Positions 44,927 to 47,197 of a DNA stretch of 59,888 bases are shown here, one piece after another. The position numbers were made by a program, and so were the translations under genes. Each line of letters begins with the position of its first letter. Positions within the stretch are counted from its first letter, which is position 1. Below the pieces are notes generated by a model. It was not told the origin of the DNA and did no database searches. It saw only the letters and a list, made by a program, of their open reading frames with translations. Source of the DNA: Clostridia bacterium (lineage in GTDB: Bacteria; Bacillota; Clostridia; Oscillospirales; Acutalibacteraceae); NCBI GenBank assembly GCA_017550105.1, contig JAFYLQ010000060.1, positions 1 through 59,888 of the forward strand. The letters are read 5' to 3'.

Positions 44927-44964
44927 AAAAAACAGAGTCCACATAAAAGTGTGAACTCTGTTTT
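44927..44964 (-). terminator. Terminator directly after tRNA-Leu
   Basis: On the minus strand AAACAGAGT..CACA and TGTG..ACTCTGTTT pair over 13 positions with one mismatch, followed by TTTTTT. It starts right at the CCA end of the tRNA. Confidence 0.85.
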
Positions 44965-45050
44965 GGTGCGGGAAAAGGGACTTGAACCCTCAAGAACTTA
45001 CGTTCATATGAACCTGAATCATACGCGTCTGCCAGTTCCGCCATTCCCGC
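44964..45050 (-). tRNA. tRNA-Leu (anticodon CAG)
   Basis: 87 bases including encoded CCA. Acceptor GCGGGAA/TTCCCGC with discriminator A; D arm GCGGAACTGGCAGACGC; anticodon stem TATGA/TCATA with loop TTCAGGT (CAG); long variable arm GAACGTAAGTTC, typical of class II tRNA; T arm GAGGG TTCAAGT CCCTT. It is preceded by a related tRNA-like element and probably transcribed from the promoter at 45192-45220. Confidence 0.95.
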
Positions 45051-45095
45051 ATATTTTATTGTGTCACTCAACGGTTTTGTTGAGAAAATAACTTT

Positions 45096-45177
45096 ACGGG
45101 AAGGACTCTTGCGGTGCCCAAAATCGTTGGTCGCTTCTGCTCGTCGCTAACGATTTTGACCGCTGCGCCATTCCCGC
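45096..45177 (-). pseudogene. tRNA-like element upstream of tRNA-Leu (degenerate or hairpin-invaded tRNA)
   Basis: Starts with the same 11 bases as tRNA-Leu (GCGGGAATGGC) and ends TTCCCGT, so an acceptor stem of 7 pairs can form. The interior does not fold as a cloverleaf. It carries a long hairpin instead: GCGGTCAAAATCGTT against AACGATTTTG plus ACCGC, with GGC bulged. No T-loop TTCAA. A near-consensus promoter lies just upstream. Either a broken tRNA gene or a small tRNA-mimic RNA. Confidence 0.55.
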
Positions 45178-45191
45178 ATATTGCATTATGC

Positions 45192-46024: not shown

Positions 46025-46053
46025 TTGATTAAACTTGCAGTTTGTGATACACT
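46025..46053 (+). promoter_or_regulatory. Promoter of the structured RNA
   Basis: TTGATT (46025-46030), 17-base spacer, TACACT (46048-46053) preceded by TGA (extended -10). The predicted start, about 46060, falls exactly where helix P1 begins. Confidence 0.6.
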
Positions 46054-46059
46054 AATACT

Positions 46060-46266
46060 TGCCAAACAAAGTTTAATAATGAAAAGGAAGTCAATTTATG
46101 AAGGGGGTATTATACCCCTTAGTTTGTCGTTCAATTTGAATTCGGTAAAAACGCAATTCCACTTGGATGGCAATAAGGGTTTCCTTTTCTATTCAAACTT
46201 TGTTTGGCGACAATTGGGGTTGCGTTTTCGGTGCGTTAACTTCGGTTGGCGCACTTTTTTATTTTT
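46060..46266 (+). ncRNA. Candidate structured RNA of about 207 nt with its own terminator
   Basis: Between a promoter and an intrinsic terminator lie several long, mutually consistent helices. P1: GCCAAACAAAGTTT (46061-46074) with AAACTTTGTTTGGC (46195-46208), 14 perfect pairs. P2 nested in P1: GAAAAGGAA (46081-46089) with TTCCTTTTC (46181-46189). Hairpin AAGGGG/CCCCTT (46101-46120). Hairpin GAATT/AATTC (46138-46159), whose loop sequence AAAACGC can pair with GCGTTTT (46222-46228), a possible pseudoknot; a full 13-pair alternative is 46148-46160 with 46216-46228. The terminator stem at 46231-46254 ends the RNA. Size and layout recall large Clostridia RNAs such as the raiA class or a riboswitch; I cannot assign a class. 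Confidence 0.65.
46231..46266 (+). terminator. Intrinsic terminator ending the structured RNA, just before a gene
   Basis: GTGCGTTAAC pairs with GTTGGCGCAC (10 pairs, two G-T) around a TTCG tetraloop, followed by TTTTTTATTTTT. It lies 22 bases before the start of the lipoprotein gene, so it could act as an attenuator. Confidence 0.85.
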
Positions 46267-46288
46267 ATGTTTAATTGGAGGAATGAAA

Positions 46289-47197
46289 ATGTTAAAAAAG
46301 CTATGCTGGATTTTGCCCATCGCAATTATACTGGTTTGTACAACAGGATGTATATTTCTTATAGGAACGAAAGCAGAAAAAGACCCATTTGCAAATTTTA
46401 CAATAACCGAAAATGCTAAATTAGCTTACGACCTTTCATTTAATGAGTATTATTCGCCGGAAGAATATGTGAATTTAATTTCCAACTTAATAACTCTAAC
46501 AAATGAAAAAAGTATCGAGCCCGTTTATGCTATTAACGATAATTTGCTCTTTGTGAAACGAACAATTGATACATATGATAGTTTTGAAGAATCAATTGCA
46601 ATAGTAGATGTTAATGGTAATTTTACAACAGACTGGAATGCTAACTGGGGAGATTATGATATACAATTTCGAGCTAAGTGTGGTGATTACTTTTTCATCA
46701 TAACTGAAGCACATAGTTACAATTATTATAATTGCGATGTTGTTAACCAAGAAGGTGAAGTGATTACAAATGTTTATTGCAAGGAAAATCGATATGATTT
46801 AGGCGATGGATATGTTTTCTTTTCTCTTGGCGCGGATTTTGGCAATATAATGAACAGTAAGGGTGAAGTTATTGAGCTTCAATACAAATCTGTGGTGCCT
46901 TCATATGGAGAAAAAGGAGCAGGAGCTTTAGAAGAGGATCAAGAAATTGGAAAAATTAGTGAAGGCTTGTTCTATGGATTTTCAAAAGGAAACGTGAATA
47001 CGGTGGCTTACTATTACAATACAAAAGGCGAGGTTGTAATTGATCTTTCTACACAAGCAGTAAATTATGAAGTAACAAAATTGTCAGATTTTTCAAACGG
47101 ACAAGCACGTATTGAATTTATTGGCGCAAATGGTAAAAATTACTATGTCAATATTGATAAAACGGGAGACTTTATCGGAGAGCCAATAGAATATTAA
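46289..47197 (+). CDS. WG-repeat-like lipoprotein, unknown function
   Basis: Protein of 302 residues. MLKKLCWILPIAIILVCTTGC is a lipoprotein-type signal with Cys21 as the likely lipid site, although TTGC is not an ideal lipobox. The body has repeated short units of the form VDVNGNFTTDW, VNQEGEVITN, MNSKGEVIEL and YNTKGEVVIDL, resembling degenerate WG (KWG) repeats that form a beta structure. The gene is more AT-rich than its neighbours, suggesting a different origin. ATG at 46289 has GGAGG 7 bases upstream; the ATG at 46283 is too close to that site. Expression may depend on reading through the terminator in front of it. Confidence 0.75.
   Translation: MLKKLCWILPIAIILVCTTGCIFLIGTKAEKDPFANFTITENAKLAYDLSFNEYYSPEEYVNLISNLITLTNEKSIEPVYAINDNLLFVKRTIDTYDSFEESIAIVDVNGNFTTDWNANWGDYDIQFRAKCGDYFFIITEAHSYNYYNCDVVNQEGEVITNVYCKENRYDLGDGYVFFSLGADFGNIMNSKGEVIELQYKSVVPSYGEKGAGALEEDQEIGKISEGLFYGFSKGNVNTVAYYYNTKGEVVIDLSTQAVNYEVTKLSDFSNGQARIEFIGANGKNYYVNIDKTGDFIGEPIEY

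Follow-up and report, generated by a model that had tools for sequence, protein, structure and literature searches.

A candidate transcription attenuator with a pseudoknot-gated design in a Clostridia bacterium and its relatives

Introduction

Transcription attenuators of the trp type are built from four consecutive RNA strands whose pairings are mutually exclusive, and the choice among these pairings leads either to a terminator or to read-through. Transcriptional riboswitches may contain pseudoknots, as the fluoride and preQ1 riboswitches do. The raiA RNA of Clostridia is similar in size to the RNA described below. Termination is also governed from upstream by the EAR and HK022 put leader RNAs, and the HK022 put RNA is reported to bind the elongation complex and so to suppress both pausing and termination (PMC9378689).

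The RNA considered here lies in a window of 59,888 nucleotides from an uncultured bacterium of the gut, the whole stretch of DNA that was analysed, and all of its features are on the forward strand. Judged from its sequence and that of its relatives, it probably functions as a four-strand transcription attenuator, forming the 5′ leader of the predicted lipoprotein gene at 46289. Like the trp-type attenuators, it has four strands whose exclusive pairings would decide termination. It differs from them in that no leader peptide was found, in that strands 2 and 3 pair as a long-range pseudoknot spanning a rod of about 35 bp, and in that the roles of the alternate pairings in forming the terminator or the antiterminator are reversed. 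With the fluoride and preQ1 riboswitches it shares a leader position, a pseudoknot, an intrinsic terminator and a covarying alternative pairing, but it has no Rfam match and no recognised ligand core, and its regulon would be a diverse set of accessory genes, with up to 27 copies of the RNA per genome. Unlike the EAR and put RNAs, it has a specific antiterminator that covaries with the adjacent terminator. It resembles raiA RNA in size and in occurring in Clostridia but, unlike raiA, matches no Rfam family at gathering score.

The RNA unit in the window

Positions 46060–46255 form a promoter-to-terminator RNA unit 5′ of the gene at 46289, as the initial annotation had proposed. The minimum free energy of 46058–46266 (209 nt) is −75.1 kcal/mol, compared to −44.3 ± 4.2 kcal/mol in 200 dinucleotide-preserving shuffles, none of which was as stable (z −7.4); the fold is beyond chance.

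The predicted promoter (46025–46053), read by eye, consists of TTGATT at 46025–46030, a 17-bp spacer and TACACT at 46048–46053, with TG before the −10 element (an extended −10, TG-A-TACACT). It was not among the 7 sites returned by a sigma-70 consensus scan, for which 8.4 were expected in shuffles. Among the 217 relatives with enough upstream sequence, a promoter score of at least 9 of 12 was reached in 154, compared to 9 of 202 control windows. Of these relatives, 170 have a 17-bp spacer and 170 have TG before the −10 element, which in 178 ends 3–6 nt 5′ of the closing helix P1. Because this layout is common to most relatives, it is a well supported prediction that the transcript begins with the first P1 base pair (about 46060), as had been suggested from the window alone.

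The unit ends in an intrinsic terminator with the expected TTCG loop, followed by a T run (46230–46255), and this hairpin is 99.3% paired in 140 aligned copies. A Shine-Dalgarno sequence, GGAGG, was read at 46277–46281, and the gene that would be controlled (46289–47197) encodes a predicted lipoprotein of 302 amino acids without a Pfam match. No homologue of this gene was found in 21 other genomes of the genus, in which the RNA does have relatives, suggesting that the leader is shared while the genes behind it change.

Helices and pseudoknot

The closing helix P1 pairs 46061–46074 with 46195–46208 over 14 bp, and the lower rod, P2, pairs 46081–46089 with 46181–46189 over 9 bp; P1 was confirmed in the sequence, and P2 in the sequence and the fold. 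P1 was found by rule in 218 of 224 distinct copies (exact duplicates dropped) and in this way not in the other 6. Its stem reaches at least 12 bp in 205 of the 218, compared to 56 of 631 controls in which the upstream sequence was shuffled. Compensating changes were present in the first P1 alignment, and P1 covariation was seen again in a systematic swap test. The rod above P1 is variable in sequence across copies, and two subtypes can be distinguished. The long subtype, to which the window's copy belongs, carries an extra local hairpin (46102–46120), one of those expected earlier and found in the sequence, the fold and the alignment, while the short subtype has a U-tract, a loop and an A-tract at its tip. 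That the rod sequence varies while its pairing is kept indicates that selection acts on the RNA, and a mobile element with terminal inverted repeats was rejected on this ground.

Within the apical loop lies strand 2, or the A-strand (46148–46160), with the consensus AAAAAYGCAnnYUCC. It pairs with the linker 3′ of P1 (strand 3, 46216–46228), forming the 13-pair helix, G-U pairs included, that was predicted to cross the closing helix. In 28 copies gathered by plain DNA similarity, without any model, 92.1% of the cells in the pseudoknot and terminator are paired, and 43 cells carry double changes compared to 13.9 in shuffles; double-sided changes in the pseudoknot fall at pairs 14-104, 15-103, 18-100, 22-94 and others. 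Homologues with compensating changes, whose absence would have spoken against a structured RNA, therefore exist.

Complementarity also links the A-strand to its own apical loop, on the 5′ side, and the hairpin that results, P5, competes with the pseudoknot. It is only 5 bp long in the window's copy, where strand 1 (46138–46142) pairs with 46155–46159, and it had been missed in the initial annotation. Evidence for both pairings comes from swap tests, in which the pairing energy with a copy's own partner is compared to that with partners exchanged between copies. In the short-loop subtype (n=126), P5 scored −10.77 with its own partner compared to −7.53 swapped (sd 0.21), and the pseudoknot −16.21 compared to −12.37. 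In the long subtype (n=29), P5 scored −5.49 compared to −4.36 (sd 0.31).

The A-strand pairs with its own linker at −16.1 kcal/mol, compared to −12.0 kcal/mol for linkers of other copies in the same genome, and its own linker is its best partner in 29 of 46 cases. This preference argues that the pseudoknot evolved as a pairing in cis; cross-pairing between copies, at about −12 kcal/mol, stays possible. The geometry is demanding. In 178 of 215 copies, P1 and the pseudoknot are only 3–6 nt apart, while the median number of enclosed base pairs is 35, so that the pseudoknot could not form if the rod were straight. It would take a sharp bend, an open P1, or pairing between molecules. The motif AATA occurs near the P1/P2 junction, at about mid-rod, in 162 of 218 copies compared to 86 in shuffles, and we would guess that it could mark a bend. 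Few letters are conserved overall, and those that are invariant in the apical loop are a G and AAAA.

The antiterminator

A second alternative pairing, likewise missing from the initial annotation, joins the linker to the terminator. The antiterminator pairs 46211–46222 with 46237–46248, of which the latter overlaps the terminator arm and loop, and it competes both with the pseudoknot, since the 5′ part of the linker strand also belongs to the antiterminator, and with the terminator. Across 215 copies, its energy is −14.72 kcal/mol with the own partner and −12.41 kcal/mol swapped (sd 0.16), and none of 200 swaps reached the own value. In a 140-sequence alignment, 86.6% of its cells are paired, with 63 double-change cells compared to 23.5 in shuffles, while slid versions are at most 45% paired. 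By one measure, the number of antiterminator pairs in which both sides change, 23 of 500 shuffles did as well; the strand of the antiterminator coincides for the most part with that of the pseudoknot, and it has letters in common with conserved parts of the terminator. In the window, the antiterminator (−13.5 kcal/mol) and the terminator (−14.8 kcal/mol) are nearly balanced, and the antiterminator can form before the 3′ arm of the terminator is made.

Coordinated changes of linker and terminator can also be seen by eye. In the third copy of the window's own genome (L067), the linker has changed in step with a terminator loop that departs from TTCG (AAUGAGGGAA with UUCCUUUAUU). Other such changes pair AUGAGA with UCUCAU in L063, AAUGAG with CUCAUU in L065, and GAGGGAA with UUCCUUC in L011. 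Taken as a whole, the leader's pairing with the 5′ arm of the terminator was no better than in swapped combinations; it is the linker that pairs with the terminator better than swapped, and this identified the antiterminator. The linker paired with the Shine-Dalgarno region no better than swapped, and for the terminator 3′ arm against the Shine-Dalgarno the own value was reached by 3 of 60 swaps. The whole leader did pair slightly better with the Shine-Dalgarno region than swapped (−11.11 compared to −10.84), which the attenuator model leaves unexplained.

Distribution and copy number

A DNA search in the genus returned 28 matches in 11 of 22 genomes, the window's own included. From these matches a model termed R1 was built, comprising the pseudoknot and the terminator and leaving P5 and the antiterminator out, so that copies found with R1 lean towards the pseudoknot. 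At a threshold of E ≤ 0.001, R1 matched in 54 of 150 genomes of the family, 103 of 295 of the order and 75 of 291 of the class, these draws and a phylum-wide one overlapping and each containing the own genome. In the phylum-wide draw, it matched in the own genome only (1 of 299; none of the 298 others). The class draw includes relatives in other orders, so that the RNA extends beyond its own order; the class is inferred to be Clostridia. Twelve genomes chosen for high counts carry 12–27 copies each, compared to 3 in the window's own genome. Four weak or cut matches (L062 at 2751, L064 at 2720, L125, and L164 at 1-95) were set aside by choice before the 224 distinct copies were counted.

The copies from other orders (n=36, 14 genomes) show the same preferences. 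P5 scored −7.47 with its own partner compared to −5.51 swapped, the antiterminator −14.23 compared to −10.84, and the pseudoknot −17.32 compared to −14.47, the last test being biased because R1, with which the copies were found, contains the pseudoknot. For all three, the own value was better than in every one of 300 swaps.

In named genomes, 113 contigs matched an exact terminator pattern, a set that is biased in the terminator for this reason. Among the 80 titles listed, all are of uncultured or metagenome-assembled bacteria, many from ruminant gut, with labels such as Clostridia, Oscillospiraceae, Ruminococcus, Eubacterium and similar. A DNA search found a copy in 1 of 50,697 phage records, and two exact patterns matched 0 and 3 viral contigs. 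In phage record MT835503.1 (L029, 420-532), the copy stands near one end of the record, and the gene that follows it falls in one cluster with the gene behind the copy at L005. Copies also occur head to tail (L060 at 1913-2834, L063, L173, L061, L217 and others), and in 15 such neighbouring pairs, with spacings of 206–404 nt, every copy has a separate terminator.

Downstream genes

Among 216 copies with at least 250 nt of downstream sequence, a Shine-Dalgarno and start codon lie within 50 nt of the match end in 143, compared to 153 of 1080 random positions. The start is most often 15–19 nt away and is within 120 nt in 170 copies, while 46 have no Shine-Dalgarno-plus-start within that distance. 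The close cases leave no space for a second promoter, so that transcription of the gene would require read-through of the terminator. In other orders, an ATG lies within 50 nt in only 13 of 36 copies. Among 15 inspected copies that lack a close ATG, the start lies at 80–98 nt in 8, behind a structured-looking spacer, and in the rest the start is absent, further off, or another codon. A conserved-looking spacer of about 80–100 nt, with AATTTG...CGCAAATT ends, stands between terminator and gene in L228, L232, L233, L235 and L244, and it is perhaps a second hairpin module.

The downstream genes are diverse and, by their predicted products, enriched for secreted or surface proteins. A hydrophobic N-terminus was found in 82 of 123 distinct downstream proteins of at least 80 amino acids, compared to 223 of 924 other open reading frames from the same loci, and a lipobox-like motif in 21 compared to 32, the 924 being unverified open reading frames. 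A domain scan of 134 downstream proteins (those of at least 60 amino acids, cut at 380) returned 26 with BspA-type leucine-rich repeats, 6 with a zinc ribbon, 3 with a dockerin and 2 with an EcoRI methylase domain, and a scan of the same 134 for defence genes gave scattered matches only. A family of proteins of about 50 amino acids (KMYxxLFNxxTDA...TEEMYI) forms a cluster of 15 behind copies of the RNA, at L008, L009, L011, L016, L024, L026-L028 and others; the two members tested have no clear Pfam or PHROG match.

Proposed mechanism and its alternatives

The RNA is a leader with an intrinsic terminator 5′ of a gene, and its antiterminator and terminator exclude each other, as is expected of a transcription attenuator. 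In the proposed mechanism, the apical loop provides strand 1 on its 5′ side, the A-strand (46148–46160) is strand 2, the linker (46211–46228) is strand 3, and the 5′ arm of the terminator with its loop is strand 4. The alternative pairings would be 1:2 (P5), 2:3 (the pseudoknot), 3:4 (the antiterminator) and 4:5 (the terminator). In the ON state, strand 2 would be kept in P5, leaving the linker free as it leaves the polymerase to capture strand 4 and permit read-through into the gene. In the OFF state, strand 2 would capture the linker as the pseudoknot, strand 4 would stay free, and the terminator would form and stop transcription. The RNA family itself, its promoter, terminator, P1, pseudoknot, P5 and antiterminator, and its position ahead of genes are all supported by comparative sequence data. 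We infer from them that the states exchange during transcription, that P5 corresponds to on and the pseudoknot to off, that a ligand, a protein, another RNA or pausing of the polymerase tips the balance, and that the RNA acts mainly on accessory genes for surface proteins.

The suggestion that the RNA is a riboswitch or attenuator for the lipoprotein gene is thus supported in its attenuator part, by the exclusive, covarying terminator and antiterminator and by the nearby start codons. Its riboswitch part corresponds to an appreciable though less probable reading, in which a conventional aptamer for a protein or metabolite uses the four strands as its expression platform. Such an aptamer is compatible with the whole anatomy, and the invariant G and AAAA of the apical loop and the excess of AATA could belong to it. 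Against it, conservation outside the switching strands does not amount to a large core, and the downstream genes have no metabolic pathway in common.

An independent small RNA acting in trans, with neighbouring genes that are incidental or read by leakage, is unlikely. The complete promoter-to-terminator unit would suit it, as would the 15 neighbouring pairs of separately terminated copies less than 450 nt apart, the many other-order copies without a close gene, and the good pairing of A-strands with the linkers of other copies. However, close Shine-Dalgarno and start sequences far exceed the control and leave no space for another promoter, the starts at 80–98 nt account for 8 of the 15 inspected copies that lacked a close gene, and a covarying antiterminator would serve no purpose if the RNA were purely a small RNA.

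A put- or EAR-like RNA, which would modify RNA polymerase to read through the terminator, is quite improbable. It has a precedent in the HK022 put RNA (PMC9378689), and the leader with a terminator directly after it would fit. A specific covarying antiterminator is not needed by processive antitermination, and LoaP is not the helper, since it was over the NF033641 cut-off in 0 of 30 genomes with the RNA and 1 of 30 without; LoaP-dependent antitermination was rejected accordingly. A leader-peptide attenuator or T-box is very improbable. The 1:2, 2:3 and 3:4 logic does recall the trp leader, but a Shine-Dalgarno with a short open reading frame occurs in 95 of 218 leaders, fewer than in shuffled leaders (140), and no Rfam T-box fell on any tested copy.

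Beyond the four-strand attenuator itself, a wider reading can be offered only tentatively. Of the cis-regulatory RNA classes known in these gut bacteria, the pseudoknot-gated attenuator may be one of the most often repeated, perhaps sensing one cell-wide signal or the terminated leaders themselves, switching a large and rapidly changing repertoire of genes for surface and accessory functions, and travelling with them, also on phages. If this holds, many accessory genes, prominently those for surface proteins, are governed by one RNA design across a wide range of gut bacteria that are mostly uncultured and whose gene regulation has hardly been described. The four-strand switch, with a pseudoknot that stops antitermination, would also be open to testing.

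Relation to described RNA families

No Rfam family was found at gathering score on the window's copy or on copies in 20 other loci, and neither a T-box nor raiA on the copies tested, which speaks against the earlier idea of a known large, raiA-like RNA. With loosened thresholds, the window's copy gave weak matches far below the cut-offs, the best being RsaF (E 0.75; 18 bits compared to 60). Up to E 1, no family fell on the RNA copies in 4 loci, 3 of which overlap the 20-locus set or the window's own locus. The RNA was not described in the literature searched, which included PMC8040213, PMC11109978, PMC8632094 and PMC9378689, although an earlier unnamed prediction may exist. These negatives and the breadth of the family favour the option of a new class that had been raised at the outset. 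On the evidence of sequence comparison, it is filed as a new class of a known kind, a putative transcription attenuator with an unusual pseudoknot-gated design.

Some other elements were observed beside the copies. In the window, the short sequence gccattcccgcatatt stands beside a tRNA-Leu gene (44964–45050, minus strand) and is repeated about 130 bases on (45039–45186), with an inverted repeat between the two copies; it is perhaps the trace of an insertion. A T-box-like leader at L177 (3529-3741) scores just under the gathering score (80.8 of 93 bits). At L173, a locus with three copies of the RNA, Rfam identifies a type II hammerhead ribozyme on the minus strand (833-906).
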